A stretch of DNA of 64,000 bases from Undibacterium parvum. Its GTDB lineage: Bacteria; Pseudomonadota; Gammaproteobacteria; Burkholderiales; Burkholderiaceae_D. Made by a program: the position numbers and the translations under genes. Position 1 is the stretch's first letter. Every line of letters begins with the position of its first letter. The stretch is from the NCBI RefSeq assembly GCF_003955735.1, contig NZ_CP034464.1, positions 1,302,001 through 1,366,000 of the forward strand. The letters are read 5' to 3'. The notes below the pieces were generated by a model. It had not been told where the DNA came from, did not search any database, and was given only the letters and a program-made list of their open reading frames with translations. Shown here piece after piece: positions 11,579 through 54,555 of this stretch.

Positions 11579-12808
11579 CTATTTTTTCAAGGCAACTTTA
11601 CCTAAATCCCAAATCGGCAAGAAGATCCCCAGCGCGAGTATTAAAACCAGAATACCCAAGCCAACAATTAAAATAGGTTCGATATTCGCCGACAGGTTTT
11701 TCAGTTCATACTCGACTTCGTGCTCATACATGCCGGCGATTTCATCCATCAGATCATCAATCGCACCGGTTTCTTCACCGACTGCGATCATCTGCAAGAC
11801 GACCGGAGTAAATACACCGGCCACAGCGGCGGTGCGCAAGATACTCTCGCCCCGCTCTACCCCATCACGCATCTGTTCGATGCGGCTACAAATGTAGGCG
11901 TTGTCCACCGTTTGCGACACCACGGTCAGCGCCTGCACGATAGGCACGCCACTTTTACTGGAGAGCGCAAAGCTGCGGGCAAACCGCGCCAGGGTGCCCT
12001 TGAGAATAATTCGACCCACAATGGGGAAGCGCAATTTGCTGCGATCCCATAGATAACGCCCTTTGGGAGTCGCGATGAAGCTCATAAAGCCGAACACCAG
12101 CGCCATCATCGCTACCGCAATATGCGGCCAGTACTCGACCACGAAATCGGAGGTCGCAATCAATATTCTGGTCATCAAGGGTAACTCGGCATTAAAGCCG
12201 GCGAATACCTTGGCAAACGCAGGGATTACCCAGATATTGATGATGGCCATCGCCACCACCATCGCGATCATGACGAACATAGGATAGCGTAAGGCACTCT
12301 TGACCCGTTCGCGCATGTCGCGTTCAAACTCAAGATGGGCGTACAGGCGTAAGAAAATATCTTCTAACTGCCCGGTCATCTCACCGACCTTCACCATGCT
12401 GATATAAAACGAAGAAAAAGCCTTGGGGTGGCGTCGCAAAGCGGCCGACAACTCACGTCCAGAGTCGAGCGACTCGCGTAAATCCTGTATCAATTTGGCG
12501 AATGCCTTGCTGACCGCTGATTCTTGTAAGCCCGCCAGTCCGCGCATGATAGGCACACCCGATTTCAATAAGGTATACAACTGCCGGCTAAACAATTGAA
12601 CTTCTATCGGTAGCACCTTCTCTTCGGTCCAGCGCTGCCACCAATTGAGCTCTCCCCCCACAACGGGTTTTCGAGTGCTATTGATTTGCACAGGCGTAAT
12701 TCCGGAATTAAACAATTGACTAGCGAGCGCATTTGCATCGGTGCTTTCGAGCACCCCTTCGACCATTTCGCCGCGCGCATTTCTGGCTTTATAGGCAAAA
12801 TAAGGCAT
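11579..12808 (-). CDS. mshG: MSHA inner-membrane platform protein MshG
   Basis: A 409-residue polytopic inner-membrane protein of the GspF/PilC family. The N-terminus MPYFAYKARNARGEMVEG is the family hallmark. Two homologous T2SF domains lie at about residues 70-195 and 270-395, each ending in long hydrophobic helices (MFVMIAMVVAMAIINIWVIP; PILIVGLGILVLILALGIF). It transmits force from the MshE ATPase to the growing pilus. The stop codon of mshE is 1 base upstream of its start, so the two are co-translated. Confidence 0.93.
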   Translation of the reverse strand: MPYFAYKARNARGEMVEGVLESTDANALASQLFNSGITPVQINSTRKPVVGGELNWWQRWTEEKVLPIEVQLFSRQLYTLLKSGVPIMRGLAGLQESAVSKAFAKLIQDLRESLDSGRELSAALRRHPKAFSSFYISMVKVGEMTGQLEDIFLRLYAHLEFERDMRERVKSALRYPMFVMIAMVVAMAIINIWVIPAFAKVFAGFNAELPLMTRILIATSDFVVEYWPHIAVAMMALVFGFMSFIATPKGRYLWDRSKLRFPIVGRIILKGTLARFARSFALSSKSGVPIVQALTVVSQTVDNAYICSRIEQMRDGVERGESILRTAAVAGVFTPVVLQMIAVGEETGAIDDLMDEIAGMYEHEVEYELKNLSANIEPILIVGLGILVLILALGIFLPIWDLGKVALKK

Positions 12809-12809
12809 G

Positions 12810-14513
12810 CTATTCCTCTAGCTGATTGCTGATACGCATCGCTTCGGCCACGGTAGAGACGCCAGACACAACCAGATCGACCGCATATTTTCTGAGCGTG
12901 CGCCCACCCATTTGCTGTTTTGCAACCTTCATAAAATGGGAGGGATCGGCATGATGCGCGGCCTCAACCACGGGCGCGGTCATCTCGAGTAATTCATAGA
13001 CACCGATACGACCGCGGTAACCGGTGCCATTGCAATGACCGCAACCACGACCGGCATGATATTGATGCTGATCCACGCTGTCGCCTAATTCAGCCGTCAG
13101 CCATTCTCTTTCGGTGGCGATCAGTGGTGTGACCTGGCGGCAACTTTCACAAATCACGCGTACCAGCCTTTGTGCCAGCACCGCCTGCAAGGAACTCCCC
13201 ATCATATAGCGCGGCACGCCCATATCGAGCAAGCGTATCGGGGTACTCACTGCATCATTGGTATGCAAGGTAGATAACACCAAATGGCCGGTCATGGCGG
13301 CGCGCATACCGATCTGGGCAGTCTCCTGATCACGCATCTCACCGAGCAGCAAGACGTCAGGATCTTGCCGCAAGGAGGCACGTAGAACTTTGGAAAAACT
13401 TAAGTCTATCTTTTCATTGACCTGCACTTGGTTAATACCGGGCAAGCGATACTCGACCGGATCTTCGACCGTGATGAGTTTTTTCTCCTGGGTATTGAGT
13501 TCAGCCAGAGCGCCATACAGGGTAGTCGTCTTACCGCTACCGGTAGGACCGGTGACCAGCACCAAACCATTTGGGCGTTTGATGATGGCGCGAAATCTTT
13601 CCAGCATCTGCTTAGGCATGCCTATCTTATCCAGATTGAGCGTGCCACCACCTTGATTCAATAAACGCATGACGACTGATTCGCCATATTGAGTCGGCAT
13701 GGTCGAGATACGCACGTCGATATTTTGTTGCCTGACCTTAATCGCAAAACGGCCATCCTGGGGCATGCGTTTTTCTGAGATGTCCATGTCCGACATCAGT
13801 TTTAAACGCAGCGCTAAAGAGCTGGCGATTTTACTATCCGCCTCGGTTTGCAGATGTAAAACGCCATCGATGCGAAAGCGTATCTGCAGGCGTTTTTCTT
13901 GCGGCTCAATATGAATATCTGAAGCCCGCACTTGAGTGGCATCATCAAACACCGACTGCAGTAATTTAACCACAGGTGCGTCTTCCATCCCCGGCGAAAT
14001 CCCGAGCGCACCGAAATCAACATTGGTGTCGCCTAACTCTTGCTCCAGTTCGCGGGCGAAATCGGTAATATCTTCGGTACGGCGATACACGTTGTCGATG
14101 GTGGACAATAATTCAGTCTCGTTCACCACCGCCAGCAATATATCGCTCTTGAGTATGCGGCCGATCTCGTCGTAGGCAAACAGATCAGTAGGGTCGGCCA
14201 TTCCAACCAGGAGCGCCCCTTCTTTTTGCTCGAGTACGATGGCGCGAAAACGCCTAGCCTGCATCTCGGGCAGCAAGCGCACCGCATTCGGATTGATATT
14301 GAGCTGTTTTAAATTCAGGTAAGGGATATTGAGCTGCCTGGCCAGCGCCCCGGAAATTTGATCTTCACTAACAAAACCGTTTTCAACAAACAAGCGACCG
14401 AGTTTGCGCCCAGTACGTTTTTGTTCAGTCAAGGCAAACTGCAACTGCTCTTCCGACATCAGCTTTTGTTGCAATAAGATTTCGCCTAAGCGAATTTTTT
14501 CTGGCCTTGCCAT
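12810..14513 (-). CDS. mshE: MSHA extension ATPase MshE with c-di-GMP-binding N-domain
   Basis: A 567-residue GspE/PilB-type ATPase that powers pilus extension. The start at 14513 (MARPEKIRLGEILL) is preceded by GGGGA. Residues 8-60 carry two tandem MshEN-type motifs (RLGEILLQQKLMSEEQLQ and KLGRLFVENGFVSEDQIS), the module known to bind cyclic di-GMP in Vibrio MshE. Walker A GPTGSGKT lies at about 322-329, the Walker B region DVLLLGEMRD near 385, and a zinc tetracysteine (CESC plus CGHCNGTGY) near 440-480. It heads the msh cluster. A Shine-Dalgarno and about 90 bases of A+T-rich DNA precede it; the promoter is not clear. Confidence 0.95.
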   Translation of the reverse strand: MARPEKIRLGEILLQQKLMSEEQLQFALTEQKRTGRKLGRLFVENGFVSEDQISGALARQLNIPYLNLKQLNINPNAVRLLPEMQARRFRAIVLEQKEGALLVGMADPTDLFAYDEIGRILKSDILLAVVNETELLSTIDNVYRRTEDITDFARELEQELGDTNVDFGALGISPGMEDAPVVKLLQSVFDDATQVRASDIHIEPQEKRLQIRFRIDGVLHLQTEADSKIASSLALRLKLMSDMDISEKRMPQDGRFAIKVRQQNIDVRISTMPTQYGESVVMRLLNQGGGTLNLDKIGMPKQMLERFRAIIKRPNGLVLVTGPTGSGKTTTLYGALAELNTQEKKLITVEDPVEYRLPGINQVQVNEKIDLSFSKVLRASLRQDPDVLLLGEMRDQETAQIGMRAAMTGHLVLSTLHTNDAVSTPIRLLDMGVPRYMMGSSLQAVLAQRLVRVICESCRQVTPLIATEREWLTAELGDSVDQHQYHAGRGCGHCNGTGYRGRIGVYELLEMTAPVVEAAHHADPSHFMKVAKQQMGGRTLRKYAVDLVVSGVSTVAEAMRISNQLEE

Positions 14514-33374: not shown

Positions 33375-33500
33375 CCTGGCCCAGCGCGCATATCCCATGC
33401 GCTCTGCAGGTCGGGCAAGCCTATCAGGCATATTCCATGCGGCTTACAGGCTAGGCAGGCTGCAAAGCCGCATGGGATATGCGCAGTGGCGGCATGCTGG
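33375..33500. repeat. REP-like palindromic repeat, copy 2 (extended)
   Basis: A 126-base element with one and a half palindromes. A left half (GCGCATATCCCATGCG...) precedes a full copy with arms GCATATTCCATGCGGCTTAC and GCCGCATGGGATATGCG. It lies in the 360-base gap between guaC and the LysR gene. The rest of that gap (33501-33704) has no ORF or clear signal. Its right flank, GGCGGCATGCTGGTTTTAAA, is shared with copy 3. Confidence 0.8.
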
Positions 33501-41351: not shown

Positions 41352-41381
41352 AAAAAAAGCACGCATCAGCGTGCTTTTTTT
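41352..41381. terminator. Bidirectional terminator between pdxH and msrA
   Basis: A GCACGC/GCGTGC stem with loop ATCA is flanked by seven A and seven T residues. It works for pdxH on the plus strand and msrA on the minus strand; the msrA stop overlaps its edge. Confidence 0.88.
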
Positions 41382-41964
41382 AATTCAGGGTGCGATTCAT
41401 ATGCCCTGAATAATTAAACTTTTTTGTGCGGACTGAGCCCGCTACTCTGTGACTCGCGTACTCTCTGGCGATCTGCACCTTGGGCGCGATCACCATGCAG
41501 CAATAGCTTTGATGCGCATTGAGCTTGTAATAATTCTGATGATATTCTTCGGCCAGATAAAAGCTTGAGACTGGCAATAAGTCAGTCACCAGCGGCGCAT
41601 CCCAAACGCAGGCCAGTTCGTCCATGACCTTCCCCGCCATCTTCTCTTGCTCAGGACTATGCGTAAAGATCACCGAACGATATTGACTGCCGATATCGCT
41701 GCCTTGACGATTTAAGGTAGTCGGGTCATGCACGGCAAAAAATACTTCGAGCAAAGTCCGGTAACTGACCACGGTATTATCAAAACTGACCCTTACCACT
41801 TCGGCGTGACCGGTATTGCCTTCTGCCACTTGCTCAGAATTAGGGTGTGCCACAGTGCCGCCAGCAAAGCCAGAATCGGCACCCTTAACGCCACGCAATT
41901 GCTGAAACACTGCTTCTATACACCAGAAACACCCACCGCCAAACGTTGCCATCTCGATCGCCAT
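41380..41964 (-). CDS. msrA: Peptide-methionine (S)-S-oxide reductase MsrA, copy 1
   Basis: A 194-residue MsrA. The active-site GGGCFWCIEAVF lies at residues 9-20, and EYHQNYY and SYCCMVIAPKV carry later conserved residues and resolving-type cysteines. It repairs oxidised methionine using thioredoxin. A paralogue of 182 residues lies at 43229, beyond an HTH regulator. The C-terminus is extended by a basic tail, KKFNYSGHMNRTLN. The gene diverges from the HTH gene at 42148. Confidence 0.93.
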   Translation of the reverse strand: MAIEMATFGGGCFWCIEAVFQQLRGVKGADSGFAGGTVAHPNSEQVAEGNTGHAEVVRVSFDNTVVSYRTLLEVFFAVHDPTTLNRQGSDIGSQYRSVIFTHSPEQEKMAGKVMDELACVWDAPLVTDLLPVSSFYLAEEYHQNYYKLNAHQSYCCMVIAPKVQIAREYASHRVAGSVRTKKFNYSGHMNRTLN

Positions 41965-42147
41965 GCTTACACTCCCAGATACGGTGATGCCTGAGTAAAA
42001 ACACGCATTTTTACTTGCATCACACCAATTACTTATTAGTTTGAATTATCAAGTAATCATTAAATATGAGCAATCTTTATACAAATAGTGGCAAGACTAG
42101 GCTCTTGGTGTATCATTTTTTAATACTTTTTTACATTTCAAAAAATC

Positions 42148-42924
42148 ATGCCTAAAGCTACCACGCTGGTTGACTCCTTGAAACGCGAACTCAAGGCTAG
42201 AAATATTACTTACGCCGAGCTCGCCACCCGTATCTCTATGTCGGAAGCGAGCGTCAAACGCATGTTTTCGCAAAAGAATTTTACCCTACAAAGACTAGAC
42301 GATATCTTACAAGCCACAGAAATCAGCTTACGTGACTTAGCGCTGAACTCGGGCGAAGAATCGCTGATCTCAGAGCTGACCTTTGAGCAAGAAAAAGAAA
42401 TCATCAACGACCCGAAAGAATTTCTGGTCGCGGTCTCGGCACTCAATTTGCTGACGGTAGAGCAAATGATCAAGATTTACGAGCTGACCGAAGTGGAAGT
42501 CATCAAATACTTGCTACGCCTGGATAAGATCGGCTTTCTGGAACTGCTCCCGAATAACCGCGTCAAGCTGCTGGTCTCGCGTACCTTCCGCTGGATACCG
42601 AACGGCCCTATCCAAAACGATTTCCGCGATCAAGCCTATGCCGAATATCTATCCTGCGACTTCAACGGCGACCACGAGTTAATGCGCCTGATCAACGTGA
42701 TGCTATCGAAACAGTCGGTCAATGCGCTGTTAAATCGCCTCAAGCAAGTGGCCAGAGAGTTTTCCGAACAACATCAGGAAGACGCCAAACTACCGTTCGA
42801 AGAAAAACACCGCATGAGCTTTATGCTGGCAGCTCGGCCATGGCTACCGCAACAATTCAAGGCGCTGGTACGTAAGGAATATATAGAGCAGTACGAGGAA
42901 AAGAAGAATAAGAAGAAGCTGTAG
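42148..42924 (+). CDS. Cro/CI-type HTH regulator with C-terminal helical domain
   Basis: A 258-residue protein. The N-terminal HTH (KRELKARNITYAELATRISM SEASVKRMFS, residues 10-40) is of the XRE type. The rest is helical and may form a second winged helix (LTVEQMIKIYELTEVEVIKYLLRLDKIGFLELLPNNRVKL) and an acidic tail with lysines. Such proteins are seen in betaproteobacteria without known function. It lies between two msrA genes and could regulate them; that is only position-based. Confidence 0.75.
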   Translation: MPKATTLVDSLKRELKARNITYAELATRISMSEASVKRMFSQKNFTLQRLDDILQATEISLRDLALNSGEESLISELTFEQEKEIINDPKEFLVAVSALNLLTVEQMIKIYELTEVEVIKYLLRLDKIGFLELLPNNRVKLLVSRTFRWIPNGPIQNDFRDQAYAEYLSCDFNGDHELMRLINVMLSKQSVNALLNRLKQVAREFSEQHQEDAKLPFEEKHRMSFMLAARPWLPQQFKALVRKEYIEQYEEKKNKKKL

Positions 42925-42969
42925 TCAAGTAAAGTTCAGTCTGTTGCGAAAATCATTAAAAACAAAACG

Positions 42970-43062
42970 AAAACCTCTCAAAGGAGGCACAGAGAAAAAA
43001 CGGAGAACGTTGGTTTTCTCAGTGAGTCTCTGTGTCTCTGTGTCTCTGTGTTGAGGGGTTTT
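42970..43062. repeat. Palindromic CTCTGTG repeat element
   Basis: A 93-base element with near-perfect 12-bp ends (AAAACCTCTCAA / TTGAGGGGTTTT) and a core of three CTCTGTGT tandem units facing CACAGAG. It lies in the 304-base gap between the HTH gene and the second msrA; the rest of the gap holds REP copy 4 and nothing else. Translated in other frames it gives the widespread spurious DTETQR-like peptide, so it is non-coding. Confidence 0.65.
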
Positions 43063-43116
43063 GACTTTCTTCATAGTCGGCGGAATAGTAAGGTAGTCAA
43101 TACAAAATCCGAAACC

Positions 43117-43200
43117 GGCAGGCTCAGCGCGCATATTCCATGCGCTTCTTCAAGCACGTAGGCCTGGAAGCCGCATAGAATATGCGCGCTGGGCCAGGCC
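43117..43200. repeat. REP-like palindromic repeat, copy 4
   Basis: An 84-base palindrome with arms CGCGCATATTCCATGCG and CGCATAGAATATGCGCG, flanked by GGCAGGCTC and GGGCCAGGCC. It lies 28 bases beyond the stop of the second msrA. Confidence 0.8.
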
Positions 43201-43228
43201 ACTTTTAAAACCGCATCAACCTAGCAAA

Positions 43229-43777
43229 TCAGCCTATTAATTTACTGGCAAACAGCTTGCGCGCCTTGGCCACCTTAGGCGCTACCACTACCGAGCAATA
43301 GCCTTGCTGAGGATGCTGGCGGAAATAATTTTGATGGTAGTCTTCGGCGATATAAAACATAGGCGCAGTACTGAGCTCGGTGACGATAGGATCTTCCCAT
43401 ACCGCTGCCATCTTATGTAGCACCTGCTGCGCAATGGCCTGCTGTTCTGCATCATGGAAATAAATAACCGAACGGTATTGGGTGCCGGCGTCATTGCCCT
43501 GACGGTTGAGCGTGGTCGGATCGTGGATGGTAAAAAATATCTCCAGCAGCTCCTGGTAACTGATCACTGCGGGGTCAAAACTCAGACGCACCACCTCAGC
43601 GTGGCCAGTCTTGCCGGTACAAATCTGCTCATAAGTGGGCATATGAACGGCACCGCCGGTATAACCTGACTCCACTTTGAGTACCCCACGGATCTGCTGA
43701 AATACCGCCTCGGTGCACCAGAAGCAACCGCCGCCCAGAGTGGCGACGGCGCTGGATGCTAAATTATTTTGCGTCAT
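43229..43777 (-). CDS. msrA: Peptide-methionine (S)-S-oxide reductase MsrA, copy 2
   Basis: A 182-residue MsrA paralogue. Active site GGGCFWCTEAVF at residues 15-26, then DPTTLNRQGNDAGTQYRSVI and YHQNYF, and a resolving-type cysteine in QGYCSVVVAPKV. It diverges in the N-terminal ten residues and C-terminal tail from copy 1, so it is an old paralogue and not a recent duplication. It probably serves the same repair role under a different promoter. Confidence 0.92.
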   Translation of the reverse strand: MTQNNLASSAVATLGGGCFWCTEAVFQQIRGVLKVESGYTGGAVHMPTYEQICTGKTGHAEVVRLSFDPAVISYQELLEIFFTIHDPTTLNRQGNDAGTQYRSVIYFHDAEQQAIAQQVLHKMAAVWEDPIVTELSTAPMFYIAEDYHQNYFRQHPQQGYCSVVVAPKVAKARKLFASKLIG

Positions 43778-44056: not shown

Positions 44057-45592
44057 ATGCAAAATTTTAGTGATGATACTCCTGTCCAGAGCGACGATGA
44101 GCTGGCTCTGCAGACCTATTTCAAGACTGGCATTTCTCCTGACGACGTCGCTGCGGTTTTTCCGCTCAAGCGCGCTCAGCCTATGCTGCAAGCGTTTACT
44201 GCCTTGTTTCATGGCGGTTTTAACGGTGTCCTGTTGCGCCTACTGGTGTTGCGCGAGCTGACCGCCGATGTCGAGACGCCGGCTTTGTCGCGCGCCGACA
44301 TCAATGCCAAACTCGGCTATTTAGAGGCCGACAGCCTGGAAACCGTGTTGTCGCGGCTGCGCACTACCGGCTTATTGGTGTGGGATGCCAGCCAGGCCGT
44401 GTATAGAGTCAGCCCTACCGCGCGCAATGTACTGGCGGCACTAGAGTCGCTACTGCAAGTGGAACAACAAGGCGAAATCGAATATGTGCTGACCCAAGTG
44501 GCCGGTGCACAGGCGGTCGGTGGTGTCTCGGTCGAGCAATTGCATCATTTGCTGGGCCGCTTAATCGAGTTGACCGAAGAATTCTCCGATGCGATTGCCT
44601 CGGGCTCAGAGTTTCAACTGCGCACTGCCCAAAAAAAATGGCATACCGCTTGCGATTGGGTAGAAAAAGGCTCGCAGATTATTCAGGCGATCACGCACGA
44701 CAGCCGCGCTGATTCAGCCACCCACAGGGCCGCACAGGCAATTGGTCGCGCTCAGAGCGCACTGCTGAATATGCAAGGCATGTTTTCGCGCGCACTGAAC
44801 CAGATCGAGCGGCAACGCGTCCATCTGGGGCAATCTGGTCTTTCGACTACCGATATCAAGACCTGGCTGTTGCAAAGAGACGATCTGGCCTCGCTGGCCG
44901 ACAATGCCTTGGCGCATCCGGTGACGCCGCTCTTCATCACTCCTTCTGAGATGATAGACGTGGCCGAAAGCGAATTGCTCGCCACCCGCGTTTCGGCAGT
45001 GGCGGGGGCTCTGCCGGAAGGCGAAAATGCGCCGGAAATCGCCAAGGATGATAGCGATGCTTTGCTAGAACTCGATCATTGGCTGGCCTTACTCAGCAAC
45101 GCCAATCCCCTAGAAAAAGCAGTGCCGCTGCAGGAAGTTTTATTGCCAGCCAGCTTCGCGATTGCCTCTTACCGCGCCTCACTATTGCCGCTGCTTGGCG
45201 ACATCAATGAATCTGCCTTGCAAGGCGCGACCGCCGCACTGGCCAGACTGCCCTTGGTATTTAATTCCAAAGACAAGATGCAAAAAGTGGTCTCTGAGCA
45301 TGTGGCTGCGATGTCGATCGCCAGTCTGAGCCTGGCGAGCGCTGAACCAGAACATCAGGAAGCGGTAGAGATGCCTGCACTGGCATCAACTACGCCCAAA
45401 AAATCGGGTAAATCCGTCAAACAAAATAAGTCAGAAAAATCAATTCAGGCCAACGCCAGCGCGACCGAAAGCGTCGCCGAAAGCGTCACCGAAAGTGTCA
45501 CCGAACACGCAATGCCAGAAATGGCCGCTAGCACTGACGCTGCAACAGCAGCACAGCCTGACGCAATAGAAATCACCAGAGAAACACCATGA
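44057..45592 (+). CDS. MksF-like kleisin subunit of an SMC condensin
   Basis: A 511-residue protein encoded first in a four-gene operon with an SMC ATPase. The N-terminal region (about 45-135) reads as a winged helix (GVLLRLLVLRELTADV, LSRADINAKLGYLEADSLETVLSRLRTTGLLV). Residues about 150-420 are mainly helical. The last 100 residues are low-complexity: Lys/Ser-rich, then repeated AESVTES units. Length (about 500) and order before a 250-residue protein and a 940-residue SMC match the MksF-MksE-MksB systems of Pseudomonas. The kleisin assignment is inferred; a C-terminal kleisin winged helix is not obvious because of the disordered tail. Stop overlaps the next start as ATGA. Confidence 0.6.
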   Translation: MQNFSDDTPVQSDDELALQTYFKTGISPDDVAAVFPLKRAQPMLQAFTALFHGGFNGVLLRLLVLRELTADVETPALSRADINAKLGYLEADSLETVLSRLRTTGLLVWDASQAVYRVSPTARNVLAALESLLQVEQQGEIEYVLTQVAGAQAVGGVSVEQLHHLLGRLIELTEEFSDAIASGSEFQLRTAQKKWHTACDWVEKGSQIIQAITHDSRADSATHRAAQAIGRAQSALLNMQGMFSRALNQIERQRVHLGQSGLSTTDIKTWLLQRDDLASLADNALAHPVTPLFITPSEMIDVAESELLATRVSAVAGALPEGENAPEIAKDDSDALLELDHWLALLSNANPLEKAVPLQEVLLPASFAIASYRASLLPLLGDINESALQGATAALARLPLVFNSKDKMQKVVSEHVAAMSIASLSLASAEPEHQEAVEMPALASTTPKKSGKSVKQNKSEKSIQANASATESVAESVTESVTEHAMPEMAASTDAATAAQPDAIEITRETP

Positions 45593-46332
45593 CCGAAGAT
45601 GCACAAATACTGATCGCCCGCCTGCTGGCACACCAGACTTTAAGACGTGAAGACAAGCTGGTAAAACGCGCCCTCTCGGATGAAATATTCCGAGCCGATG
45701 TCGATCTGCGTCTAAAAGCTTGCGGCATGAAATTTCTCGACAATGTATATGCCGACTACGTCACGTTGGCACTCACGCGCGACAGCGAATCGAAAGTATT
45801 CGGCACCAAAGAGACCTGGCAGAACAATAATTTTGGCCTGGCGCGCGATGGTGTCGCGCTATTGGTGGTGTTGTGGTCACTGATTATTTTGCCGAAACGC
45901 GAACGCCAGGAAGCGCATCAGCAAGCCGAAGAAGAACAGAACGATATGTTCGGTAAAGAAAAACCTATGCCACGCGCCGAAGAAAGTTCTATCGGTATTT
46001 CTTACCGCGCCTTGTTGGCCGATTTTGGCGAAAAGCTAGGCAAGAAAACCCGTATGGACATGAATCTGGGGCAGCTGGCGCGTCTGGGTTTTATCGAACG
46101 CAAAGGCGACCTGGTGCTGGAAGGTGCCTTACTCGATTTGATGATGGATACCGACACACTGAAAGACCGCATCATCAACGGCGCGCTATCGGATATTTTC
46201 CCGGCGCAGATACAACGCACCCCGGCTGTGATTGCGCCACTGCTTGAAGCCGAGGCAGAGCCAGAGCCACAGCAAGAACACCAAGCGCAAGCCGAGCAGG
46301 CATCCGCCGTCACACCAACAGAAGAAGAATAA
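45589..46332 (+). CDS. MksE-like (KITE) subunit of an SMC condensin
   Basis: A 247-residue protein. Two winged-helix-like regions are suggested by EIFRADVDLRLKACGMKFLDNVYADYV, ALLADFGEKLGKKTRMDMNLGQLARLGFIERKGDLVLEGALLDLMMD. This is the size and style of MukE/MksE, the dimeric KITE subunit that binds the kleisin. The C-terminus is an acidic Glu/Gln/Ala tail. It overlaps the upstream gene by 4 bases and is followed by the SMC gene after 5 bases. The assignment rests on operon architecture, length and these segments. Confidence 0.6.
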   Translation: MTEDAQILIARLLAHQTLRREDKLVKRALSDEIFRADVDLRLKACGMKFLDNVYADYVTLALTRDSESKVFGTKETWQNNNFGLARDGVALLVVLWSLIILPKRERQEAHQQAEEEQNDMFGKEKPMPRAEESSIGISYRALLADFGEKLGKKTRMDMNLGQLARLGFIERKGDLVLEGALLDLMMDTDTLKDRIINGALSDIFPAQIQRTPAVIAPLLEAEAEPEPQQEHQAQAEQASAVTPTEEE

Positions 46333-46337
46333 GCCCT

Positions 46338-49166
46338 ATGTTTCATATTAAATCTTTAGAACTGGTGCACTGGGATTACTGGCAGCGCATCAAGAATATC
46401 CCGCTAGACGCCAAGATCATCACCATTGCTGGCCAAAACGGTTCTGGCAAAACCACCTTGCTCGATGCGTTGCGCACTCTGTTTGGTCTGGAATGCTCGA
46501 TGGGCCGCTCCTACAAACATTATGCGCGTCACTCCGGCCAGCAAACCTCATGGATACGTGCTGTAGTCGACAACAGCGCGGTCGGGCCGCAGATCTCAAA
46601 CCGCCCTTTCCGCCTTTCTGGCTTGTATGAGGACGATGTCACGCTGTTTTGTAAAATCGAAAAAAACGGTGGCGATTGGAAGCGGCTGTATCTGATGCGC
46701 GGCGGCAAAGTCGAGATCGAAGAAGTGCAGGAAGCGAATGACTGGCTGGGTGTAGAGAACTACCGCAAGCGCCTGTCGCATGCAGGCCTGTCCAGCGCGA
46801 TGGGTAAGGTGCTGGCACTGGAGCAAGGCGAGACCGATAAGCTGTGCGAATACGCACCACGCCAGTTGCTCGATCTGGTGTTTCAGGTGTTCGGCGACAA
46901 GGAAGTGTTGGACGCCTACGATGACGCCAAGCGCCATCAACGCGATACCGAAACCGAATTGCAGCATTTCGAAACCGAATTCGACGCGGCCAAAACAAAT
47001 CTGGAAGGTCTGCGCCTGCGCGTGGCCAATTACCACCAGTGGGAAGCGCTGAACAAAGAAAAACGCGATTTACAGGAAGAGGTTTTGCCGACCCTGCAAT
47101 ACCATGAGGCGCTAGAACATGCCGCTGCCACCAGCCAGGCGCTGCGCGGCAGTAAGCGTTTTCTCAAGACCCAGGATGAAGGCCTGTCTGAACGGCGCCA
47201 GCAACTGGCACAACAGGCACAAAAACTCACAGAAGCGCAACAGAGCGAAGCCGGTCTGGAAGCGGAAGAGTCTAGTCTGCGCGAAAAACTGCAACAGATT
47301 AATACCAAACTAAAACCGCAAGAAAGTCTGCTGGAGCAAAAAACCCGTTTGCAAAAACTGGCCGCAGAAGCCGATGCTGACGTCGCCAATGTGGCCGACG
47401 ATCTGGAGAAAAAAGAAGCCGAGCTGTCGCGCAATAAGCAAGAGCGCGACGCCCTCAGCAGCCGCATCAGTGCCGAGATGGAAACCATTAGCGCCCTGCA
47501 AGGCAAGACCGCGCTAGCCGATCCGGAAAACGTGCGCCTGATGCGCCGTGCACTCAACGATGCCGGCATTTCTCATTGCATGTTGCCTGAGATAGTAGAA
47601 GTAACCGACCAAAAATGGCAAGGCGCAGTCGAAGGTGTCTTGCGCGGCTACACCTCGGTCATTTTGCTCGACAAAGCCAGTGACGCCAGCGCCGCTTACC
47701 GTGTCGGCGAAAAGCAACGCTACAGCCACTTCATCGTACCGGACCGTATCAACGCCCCTAGCGTCAAAGACGATAGTCTGCTGTCGGTGGTGAATTTTAC
47801 CGCCAAGGCACCAAGCTGGTTGATCGAGCAATTGCAGCGAATCGAGACCGTTGATTCCATCGACAAGGGCATGAAGAGCGCCAAGTCGCAAGAATGGATC
47901 ACGCCCGATGCTTACCACTTTGAACGCCGTGGCGGCCGCTCGCTATTTGTCGAAGCCTCGCGCTATCGTTTCGGTAGCGCCGGTCGTACCCAACGTCTGG
48001 AAGCTCTGCAAAAATCGCTGCCGCGCCTGCAATCGCAAGAAGATCAGCTCACCATTAAAATCAGCAAACTCGCGGGTGAAATTAGCTCTTACAAAGCCAG
48101 ACTAGCCGGTGTCGATGCGGCCAAAGAACTCAGCGCCCGTCATGCAGAATTTGAAGAAGCCACACGCAACACCCAACCGCTGAAACAGCAACGCATGGAA
48201 GTTGGTGGTCGTCTGGGCGAGCTGGCACCTTTGCTCAAATCCGCCACCGAACAACGCACCGTGGCACATCTAAAATGGGAGCAAGCCAAGGCCAGCATCG
48301 CCGACGCCGAAGCCCAATTACGAGTATCAGAAAAGCGTCACGCGGAAGAACGCAAGACCCAGTTCGAGACGCTCAAGGCGATGCGCGCCAGCTGGCACAA
48401 ACTACCGCATAACTGGAAGCGTAGCTCACACCGCAAAGAGCTGGTGGCCGAACACGAAAACGTCCATCAGATCGACCTCCGTCTACGCAGCCTGGGGAAT
48501 ATTTTAGGACGTGATGACTGGGAAATTGACTCTACCGTGGTCGATCAGTACGTGCGCTTAAACACCTTACTACAAGGCCGCCAGGCAGAAACCGACGAGC
48601 GCCGCTATCAGAATAACCGCGCCATGGAAGCCACCGTCAACGCCCGCAGCGCCTACATGGACAGGCTGCGTTACACGATTAAGGCCTACAGCAAAAACAT
48701 CAAACAACTAGGCGAACTGGCCGGTATTGAAGTGCACACCGATCCGGTTAAGCTGGAAAATGACGATACCCAATTATCGCAAGCCGGCCTGCACGTACGC
48801 TTTAAGTTCGACGGCAAAGGCCCGATAGGCATGAACGACGGCGAAGCCTCCGGCGGCCAACAGGTCATGAAGTCACTGATCTTGTTGATAGGCTTACTCA
48901 AATCGGAAGACGGTTCCGGTGGCTTCGTCTTCATCGATGAACCGTTTGCCCATCTGGATATCCGTAATATTCAGCTGGTCGGTGAATTTTTGAAAAACAC
49001 CGACGCCCAATACCTGATGACCACCCCGCTGACGCACAACACTGACGTCTACGACCCATCAGAATTGACACTGATCACGAGCAAGAAGAAAAAAGACACA
49101 GAATGGGCGCAGCCGATTTTTGTCTTGCAGCGTAAGGTTGAGAAAATCAAGGACGCCAGAGCGTGA
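46338..49166 (+). CDS. MksB-like SMC ATPase
   Basis: A 942-residue SMC-type ATPase. Walker A AGQNGSGKTTLLDALRTLFG at residues 31-50 and C-terminal signature ASGGQQVMKSLILLIGLL (837-854) and Walker B GFVFIDEPFAHLD (862-874) together form a composite head. Long coiled coils (about 200-390 and 560-730) flank a central hinge-like region (about 400-540; RLMRRALNDAGISHCMLPEI, QGAVEGVLRGYTSVILL). This length is close to MksB and Wadjet JetC, much shorter than MukB. The protein would load on DNA and form loops with the two preceding gene products. It ends in an overlap with the DUF1993 gene. Confidence 0.85.
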   Translation: MFHIKSLELVHWDYWQRIKNIPLDAKIITIAGQNGSGKTTLLDALRTLFGLECSMGRSYKHYARHSGQQTSWIRAVVDNSAVGPQISNRPFRLSGLYEDDVTLFCKIEKNGGDWKRLYLMRGGKVEIEEVQEANDWLGVENYRKRLSHAGLSSAMGKVLALEQGETDKLCEYAPRQLLDLVFQVFGDKEVLDAYDDAKRHQRDTETELQHFETEFDAAKTNLEGLRLRVANYHQWEALNKEKRDLQEEVLPTLQYHEALEHAAATSQALRGSKRFLKTQDEGLSERRQQLAQQAQKLTEAQQSEAGLEAEESSLREKLQQINTKLKPQESLLEQKTRLQKLAAEADADVANVADDLEKKEAELSRNKQERDALSSRISAEMETISALQGKTALADPENVRLMRRALNDAGISHCMLPEIVEVTDQKWQGAVEGVLRGYTSVILLDKASDASAAYRVGEKQRYSHFIVPDRINAPSVKDDSLLSVVNFTAKAPSWLIEQLQRIETVDSIDKGMKSAKSQEWITPDAYHFERRGGRSLFVEASRYRFGSAGRTQRLEALQKSLPRLQSQEDQLTIKISKLAGEISSYKARLAGVDAAKELSARHAEFEEATRNTQPLKQQRMEVGGRLGELAPLLKSATEQRTVAHLKWEQAKASIADAEAQLRVSEKRHAEERKTQFETLKAMRASWHKLPHNWKRSSHRKELVAEHENVHQIDLRLRSLGNILGRDDWEIDSTVVDQYVRLNTLLQGRQAETDERRYQNNRAMEATVNARSAYMDRLRYTIKAYSKNIKQLGELAGIEVHTDPVKLENDDTQLSQAGLHVRFKFDGKGPIGMNDGEASGGQQVMKSLILLIGLLKSEDGSGGFVFIDEPFAHLDIRNIQLVGEFLKNTDAQYLMTTPLTHNTDVYDPSELTLITSKKKKDTEWAQPIFVLQRKVEKIKDARA

Positions 49167-49711
49167 TGGACATTGAAACACTCAACAGCAGCGACTTCAT
49201 GTACCAAAGTTCGGTGCCGGTATTTGGTCGCTATCTAAGTCAAATGAATATCGTGTTAGACAGACTGGAGCTGGATGCGGCGCGTCTGAATCTGAGCCCT
49301 GACGAACTACTCCAGGCCAGGCTCGCGCCCGACATGTTCGCGTGTGCAGATCAACTGGCGATCGCCTGTAATTTCGTATTTCGCTGCTGCGCGCCATTGG
49401 CGCAAATGGAGATTCCCGCCTACGGAAACTTCGATAGCACTCTAGCAGGCTTGCGCCAGCGTATCGCCAGCAGGCTAAGCTTTATACAAACGCTGACACC
49501 GGTGCACATGCAGGGCAGCGAGGCTCGTCTGATACACGCCGATGCAGGTCAGGCACAACTGCATTTGCCTGGCATGGTCTTCCTACATCAGTACATGCTG
49601 CCGAATTTCATCTTCCATCTGAGCAGCGCGTATGCCATTTTGCGCCAGCAAGGCCTAGCATTGGGCAAGGCGGACTTTGATGGTTTTCATGTTTATCCCC
49701 GTGCATCCTAA
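49166..49711 (+). CDS. DUF1993 (DinB-clan) protein coupled to the SMC operon
   Basis: A 181-residue protein with the DUF1993 pattern: SVPVFGRYLSQMNIVLDRLE, LLQARLAPDMFACADQLAIACNF, YGNFDSTLAGLRQRIASRLSFIQ and LPNFIFHLSSAYAILR. It is a predicted four-helix bundle in the DinB/YfiT superfamily; several members bind metals, but function is unknown. The ATG at 49166 overlaps the SMC stop as TGATG; a GTG at 49163 is possible. Such genes are usually found alone, so translational coupling to a condensin is unusual. A nuclease of the MksG/JetD kind is not present nearby. Confidence 0.8.
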   Translation: MDIETLNSSDFMYQSSVPVFGRYLSQMNIVLDRLELDAARLNLSPDELLQARLAPDMFACADQLAIACNFVFRCCAPLAQMEIPAYGNFDSTLAGLRQRIASRLSFIQTLTPVHMQGSEARLIHADAGQAQLHLPGMVFLHQYMLPNFIFHLSSAYAILRQQGLALGKADFDGFHVYPRAS

Positions 49712-49773
49712 AATGCACAAACACCGGAAAACCTAGCTGCCAGCGACTCGAAATCGATTATTCAAAACGAAAC

Positions 49774-49833
49774 ACGCATATTCCATGCGCCTTAGCGAGC
49801 AAAAACAGGCTGTAAGGCGCATGGAATATGCGT
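49774..49833. repeat. REP-like palindromic repeat, copy 5
   Basis: A 60-base hairpin with a perfect 21-bp stem (arm begins ACGCATATTCCATGCG) and an 18-base loop. It lies 63 bases past the DUF1993 gene and directly beside the 120-bp element at 49845. It could terminate the condensin operon. Confidence 0.85.
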
Positions 49834-49844
49834 GATCGTTTTTT

Positions 49845-49964
49845 GGAACTTCTAAAAACCCCATAATCGTACGCATCGCGGCGTTACAAATCCTCGCAAT
49901 ACCGACGTATTGCTCCGGTTTGCGCCTTGCGCTGCATCCCGATTAAAGGGTTTTTAGAAGTTCC
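49845..49964. repeat. 120-bp palindromic element, copy A
   Basis: Ends are perfect 16-bp terminal inverted repeats (GGAACTTCTAAAAACC...). The interior is another imperfect dyad. It contains no ORF. A near-identical copy lies at 54436-54555 in opposite orientation. It occupies most of the 314-base gap between the DUF1993 and aminotransferase genes together with REP copy 5. Confidence 0.85.
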
Positions 49965-54435: not shown

Positions 54436-54555
54436 GGAACTTCTAAAAACCCTTTAATCGGGATGCAGCGCAAGGCGCAAACCGGAGCAATACGTCGGTA
54501 TTGCGAGGATTTGCGCCGCCGCGATGCGCCCGATTATGGGGTTTTTAGAATTTCC
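54436..54555. repeat. 120-bp palindromic element, copy B (inverted relative to copy A)
   Basis: Reads as the reverse complement of copy A (49845-49964) with only a handful of base changes. Its left end is preceded by an extra copy of the terminal motif, GAACTTCTAAAAAGG, at 54422-54435, as if an end had been duplicated. It lies between glcE and glcD. Confidence 0.85.

Follow-up and report, generated by a model that had tools for sequence, protein, structure and literature searches.

Three adjoining plus-strand genes in a 64,000-nucleotide stretch of the Undibacterium parvum genome (contig NZ_CP034464.1, positions 1,302,001 to 1,366,000; hereafter the window), which we call F, E and B, are followed directly by a gene, D, for a DUF1993 protein. 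We propose that F, E and B encode a KITE-type SMC complex belonging to a lineage found mainly in Burkholderiales, and that in the window's clade this complex is a nuclease-less accessory condensin acting on the chromosome, with the DUF1993 gene as a passenger; we put the probability of this reading at about 0.57. Judged by sequence, the lineage appears separate from the Smc, MukB, MksB and type I JetC proteins with which it was compared. Our literature search, whose coverage mostly excluded subscription journals, returned no title describing it. Unless prefixed with a genome or locus identifier, coordinates are positions within the window, and G000 denotes the window's own genome.

Results

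B is an SMC ATPase on a branch of its own

The split SMC ATPase head that the original prediction placed in the third open reading frame (ORF) is borne out by B, which scores 49.2 bits against Pfam SMC_N (cut-off 40) and carries a Walker A motif, an ABC signature (SGGQQ, residues 838-842) and a Walker B motif (FVFIDE, residues 863-868). The residues of all three motifs are invariant in 19 aligned family members, Q33 excepted, and Walker A reads G[QP]NGSGKT across 12 B proteins of the family. B thereby supplies the split-head SMC ATPase expected of a KITE-based SMC complex. Its centre resembles a hinge: the score against PF06470 SMC_hinge (E 0.031) does not reach that model's cut-off, and in a profile comparison the region aligns to residues 403-638 of the JetC encoded by the same genome (E 7.1e-6). 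The PADLOC JetC models match B at E 2.7e-20, mostly over the coiled coil.

B lies outside the MukB family (PF04310, 14.5 bits against a cut-off of 23; NF003422, 15.7 against 699) and is not an Smc equivalog (TIGR02168, 78.7 bits against a cut-off of 567). In the head, the 12 family B proteins average about 23% identity with JetC, 20% with Smc, 18% with MukB and 17% with MksB. In a tree of SMC heads these 12 proteins form their own branch with support of 100, apart from five MksB proteins, in a tree whose deep branching order around B is not settled. A plasmid search with B found relatives on two Variovorax megaplasmid records (NZ_LR594690.1 and NZ_LR594663.1; half of B covered, 42% identity) and nothing beyond these; the relative is annotated there only as 'ATP-binding protein'. 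At one locus on a draft contig (L062), the B gene has a single internal stop, at codon 321 of the translated stretch, which may reflect an error or a broken gene.

E has a KITE fold and F is a probable kleisin

The first two genes had been described as MksF-like and MksE-like, a description that holds for E by fold, holds with moderate fold support for F, and fails for both in sequence models. The predicted fold of E resembles JetB, with the tandem winged helices of a KITE protein clearly present, and E would fill the place of the KITE subunit in the KITE/kleisin framework, as set out in the sections consulted of PMC10512200. The predicted fold of F comprises an N-terminal winged helix (residues ~41-135), long helices (~140-252), a C-terminal winged-helix-like part (~358-426) and a low-confidence tail from ~430. 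MukF is its top match by both fold-search programs, with a large root-mean-square deviation and with other winged-helix proteins within 1 Z. Together with its position in the gene order, which fits a kleisin, this moderate evidence makes F a probable MukF-like kleisin. The fold-match listings for E and F do not by themselves exclude families outside them.

At the sequence level, neither F nor E has a family match in the Pfam, NCBIfam or PADLOC models; neither matches ScpA or ScpB in Pfam, and the DUF3375 and DUF4194 models do not match them, though both are strong on JetA and JetB of the same genome. The MksE model PF21980 matches none of 35 E relatives. When the three proteins are set against the Mks and Jet families, B matches JetC and F and E match nothing. 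Profile comparisons that set F and E against their MksF/MksE, JetA/JetB and MukF/MukE counterparts also returned nothing. For F this comparison is without power, because MksF likewise failed to pick up MukF or JetA; with MksE, by contrast, MukE was recovered (probability 89.8). Searching PDB sequences with F, with E or with the JetD-like profile described below yielded nothing useful. In fold alignments residue 1 of E falls at JetB residue 44-48, so that the JetB N-terminal tail is missing from E. We considered this absence as a sign of nuclease loss and dropped the idea, because E of aligned loci bearing JetD is also without the tail.

F, E and B recur together

Our ORF calls place four plus-strand genes where the original prediction had them, with an overlap of 4 nt between F and E, a gap of 5 nt between E and B, and an overlap of 1 nt between B and D. 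To follow the genes elsewhere, we assembled 119 loci: the window, 38 of the 39 loci of other genomes in the family (the short contig fragment G044 was left out), and 80 named loci, which are the best 80 of 105 relatives found when B of L057, a Herbaspirillum-like locus, was used as the query. F, E and B stand in the same order at all 38 family loci, and most of those with cleanly callable ORFs have small gaps or overlaps between them. Of the 80 named loci, 78 have all three genes, and in the remaining two the contig starts only within B or shortly before it.

E has a match in 40 of 97 genomes of the family, the window's own included, and in 40 of 43 Undibacterium genomes (34 of the 35 of high quality, a broken copy being counted), as well as in 39 of 250 genomes of the order; F has a match in 2 of 274 genomes of the class, one of them the window's own. 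In three of the 40 Undibacterium genomes E is partial or split up at contig ends, and in the single-contig genome G382 a broken E survives as two fragments (G382:C1:2074223-2074724). Ratios of nonsynonymous to synonymous substitution (dN/dS) against three congeners are 0.05-0.06 for B, 0.07-0.10 for F and 0.11-0.19 for E, at dS of 0.8-1.9, which is near saturation. F-E-B is under purifying selection and near-core in Undibacterium, and its presence is patchy in some genera of the family. Because the three genes recur jointly at 38 of 38 family loci and have dN/dS of 0.05-0.19, the operon is more than a chance arrangement.

Some relatives carry a JetD-like nuclease gene after B

The observation that no nuclease partner is visible in the window stands: the operon contains no JetD Toprim nuclease, and the neighbouring ORFs that were scanned with Pfam, PADLOC and NCBIfam models gave no match to a nuclease family. 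Clustering of neighbours across the 119 loci revealed, at 15 of them, a plus-strand gene of ~400 codons directly after B, and a profile built from these 15 copies found long JetD-like copies at 25 loci (23 with two duplicate pairs counted once). Six copies were tested, and PADLOC JetD models recognise each of them, mostly over the C-terminal part (best E 3.5e-12 to 4.2e-6); one of the six matches Pfam DUF2399 at E 2.9e-4, just under the cut-off, and the others gave nothing firm in Pfam. A database search with the gene returned 138 relatives. Several of the 120 listed are named 'DUF2399 domain-containing protein', and where the source gives a name it is mostly this or 'hypothetical protein'.

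The Toprim glutamate (in WLIE) and a DxD motif are kept in 21 of 21 aligned JetD-like copies. These residues may be equivalent to E236 and D279 of Corynebacterium glutamicum MksG, which the part consulted of PMC10123090 gives as required for cleavage. Distances between JetD-like proteins correlate with those between their B partners (r = 0.897, a value reached in 0 of 2000 permutations, relatedness not being allowed for), and the nuclease has therefore most likely been passed down along with the complex instead of being acquired by it time and again. The four-gene form, F-E-B-JetD-like, is probably an anti-plasmid Wadjet-like system. At L057 a jetD stub remains downstream of B (12622-12843): a stretch of 45 residues aligns to the N-terminal part of the JetD-like profile and is followed by a stop, and no further jetD piece was found in that locus. 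The JetD-like family was not found in the 43 Undibacterium genomes, in a search that had no positive control. Type I JetA and JetB and four JetD proteins, tried as alternative probes, recovered proteins of their own type in two control loci and had no match at the 119 loci.

The DUF1993 gene is found beside B in the window only

D is a genuine DUF1993 member, of a family that we take, following the original prediction, to belong to the DinB clan. At the B-D junction, TGATG, the B stop codon (TGA, 49164-49166) and an ATG start of D (49166-49168) have one base in common. Further possible starts are GTG 49163, which would give a protein of 182 residues, and ATG 49199. Because alignments with relatives mostly begin at D residue 9-13 (in a few at 5-8), the first residues and the start codon are uncertain.

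No DUF1993 gene stands beside B at any of the 38 family or 80 named loci, five of these 118 having less than 1300 nt after B, and among 59 DUF1993 loci retrieved with their flanks, two of them from the window's genome, B is present at the window's only. DUF1993 itself is common: 77 of the 97 family genomes have it, as do 35 of the 43 Undibacterium genomes, again counting the window's own. Both E and DUF1993 are found in 34 Undibacterium genomes and adjoin in the window genome only; five of the other pairs share a contig, at distances of 445 kb to 2.6 Mb, and in the other 28 genomes, which are draft or multi-contig, the two are on separate contigs. The second DUF1993 gene of the window's genome (G000:C1:839831-840316; L225 3820-4329) is a stronger family member than D, at 198 bits, and its flanks hold no match to F, E or B. 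D is probably a lineage-specific passenger in an empty fourth place.

Discussion

In the mechanism we envisage, B would dimerise at its hinge, F would bridge two B heads and E would sit on F, and cycles of ATP would reel in DNA loops, with DNA entrapment and loop extrusion expected by homology. Where a JetD-like nuclease is present, F-E-B would act on small circles as Wadjet does. Where it is missing, as in the window's clade, the complex would act on the chromosome as an accessory condensin, in the manner of Pseudomonas aeruginosa MksBEF, which, according to the part of PMC7485682 consulted, helps to organise and segregate the chromosome. That F-E-B is a further SMC complex follows from the separate presence, in the same genome, of Smc, ScpA and a type I Wadjet.

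Two other views of what the operon does were considered. The original prediction cast the DUF1993 protein as a fourth partner, a regulator or effector of the condensin, and named as a reason to abandon this view a pairing confined to one strain, which is what the neighbourhood counts found (0 of 118 other loci). The stop-start overlap with B on the same strand, and a reading frame that opens a few residues ahead of the point where most relatives begin to align, speak for such a partner, but a gene so widespread in family and genus, and lying away from F-E-B elsewhere wherever both could be placed, makes a true fourth subunit very improbable. A defence role for the nuclease-free operon, in which F-E-B would capture small circular DNA and either sequester it or pass it to the genome's own type I JetD or to another nuclease in trans, has more to recommend it: the genome encodes a complete JetABCD including JetD, F-E-B presence is patchy in some genera, and C. 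glutamicum MksG binds the kleisin MksF, as stated in the portion of PMC10123090 consulted. Against it, no sequence link was found from JetA and JetB of the genome to F and E, the link of JetC to B is partial, type I JetA, JetB and JetD are found at 0 of 119 loci, and near-core presence in a genus is unusual for a defence gene. We regard this role as improbable and prefer a condensin acting on the chromosome.

The history of the fourth gene can likewise be read in two directions. A quick B tree of 111 rows (six loci with a short B or less than 1300 nt downstream, two of them jetD-bearing, and two duplicates having been dropped) places jetD in 0 of 35 rows of clade I, which contains the window, and in 21 of 76 rows of clade II, proportions that are not population frequencies because the loci of the two clades were gathered differently. 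The distribution of jetD requires at least ten changes on this tree, eight of them forced by its starred branches, and sister Herbaspirillum loci differ in its presence. The best reading is that a divergent Wadjet-like SMC lineage, mainly of Burkholderiales, has repeatedly lost its nuclease; loss, rather than gain, is the direction we infer, and it is favoured because the gene order is common to JetABCD. Since the root of the tree is a midpoint only, the same holds for loss in clade I as against never having had the gene. We hold it close to an even chance that the lineage has moved, on several independent occasions, from immunity by plasmid cutting (F-E-B-JetD) to a chromosomal condensin without a nuclease (F-E-B), some of the losses being recent. 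The reverse course, with F-E-B first a plain condensin, a JetD-like nuclease gained once by clade II and never present in the window's clade, agrees with its absence from all 35 clade I rows and with the division of the two clades under the midpoint root. It is nevertheless doubtful, since the nuclease gene holds the same place directly after the SMC gene as in the genome's own JetABCD, which suggests an inherited four-gene order, and since the JetD-like proteins match JetD models; repeated changes within clade II are needed under either course.

If condensins arose from defence systems, as has been proposed, a lineage with a JetD-like gene in some members and not in close sisters offers a natural series for that origin, with possible intermediate states between the two, and the proposal can be tested strain against strain. 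The lineage is easy to overlook: F and E of the window lack a family match, the JetD-like gene is weak in PADLOC, and a B relative is named 'ATP-binding protein'.

Features of the operon and its flank are collected in Table 1. Relative to its shuffles, the region as a whole has fewer terminator-like sites. Shorter relatives of the inverted repeat beyond D lie at 33423-33483 and 43130-43186. An element of ~120 bp with inverted-repeat ends occurs at 49845-49964 and 54436-54555 in opposite orientations, the copies being 95% alike, and has a relative in locus L033; it looks like a miniature inverted-repeat transposable element. Upstream, at 41380-43777, a helix-turn-helix gene lies between two msrA paralogues that are 56% identical, and a similar trio stands before F in L033.

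Table 1 Features of the F-E-B operon and its downstream flank in the window
Feature	Position	Strand	Basis
F, probable MukF/MksF-like kleisin, 511 aa	44057..45592	+	ORF, predicted fold
E, JetB/MksE-like KITE subunit, tandem winged helix, 247 aa	45589..46332	+	ORF, predicted fold
B, SMC ATPase, 942 aa	46338..49166	+	SMC_N, JetC models, conserved ABC motifs
Walker A of B, GQNGSGKT, residues 32-39	46431..46454	+	motif alignment
Hinge-like centre of B, about residues 416-545	47583..47972	+	weak SMC_hinge score, JetC profile alignment
ABC signature SGGQQ and Walker B FVFIDE of B, residues 838-868	48849..48941	+	motif alignment
D, DUF1993 protein	49166..49711 (ATG start)	+	PF09351, 139.3 bits (cut-off 23.4)
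Long imperfect inverted repeat with terminator-like hairpins, between D and a convergent aminotransferase gene	49764..49842		window sequence

Comparison with known SMC systems

With Smc-ScpAB the lineage shares the SMC_N match and an SMC-like ABC signature in B, but Smc and ScpA are encoded separately in this genome, and neither F nor E is recognised by a Pfam model of ScpA or ScpB. The likeness to MukBEF lies in the fold of F, for which MukF is the top match, whereas the MukB-type protein of locus L246 is far longer than B, at 1508 residues, with 18% head identity. Type I Wadjet shares with F-E-B the KITE fold, a partial profile match at the SMC centre and, in relatives at 25 of 119 loci, a JetD-like Toprim gene after the SMC gene. 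The genome's own complete JetABCD (G000:C1:348087-355117; L224 4088-11118) is strongly recognised by the family models (JetA by DUF3375, 494 bits; JetB by DUF4194, 143; JetC by PADLOC, 1566.6; JetD by JetD_C, 186), whereas F and E of the window match none and B matches JetC mostly in the coiled coil, so that the window operon does not pass as a Wadjet by these models. Its JetC has 1178 residues to the 942 of B, with 23% head identity, and the window's clade lacks the JetD-like gene that Wadjet possesses.

For MksBEF, comparison loci were found with the Pfam MksE model PF21980. They differ from F-E-B in the SMC head (~17% identity to B), in a Walker A of the form NN-x-GK[ST] rather than G[QP]NGSGKT, in the failure of PF21980 to match any of 35 E relatives and in the position of B outside the MksB branch. 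In architecture they are alike: the SMC proteins of five loci have 917-943 residues and the kleisin ORFs of the two clearest 452 and 413, against 942 and 511 in the window, and loci L247-L251, like the window operon, have no JetD match (L252 served as positive control). The gene order is the same, and the window operon thus has the nuclease-free F-E-B arrangement of the MksBEF type.
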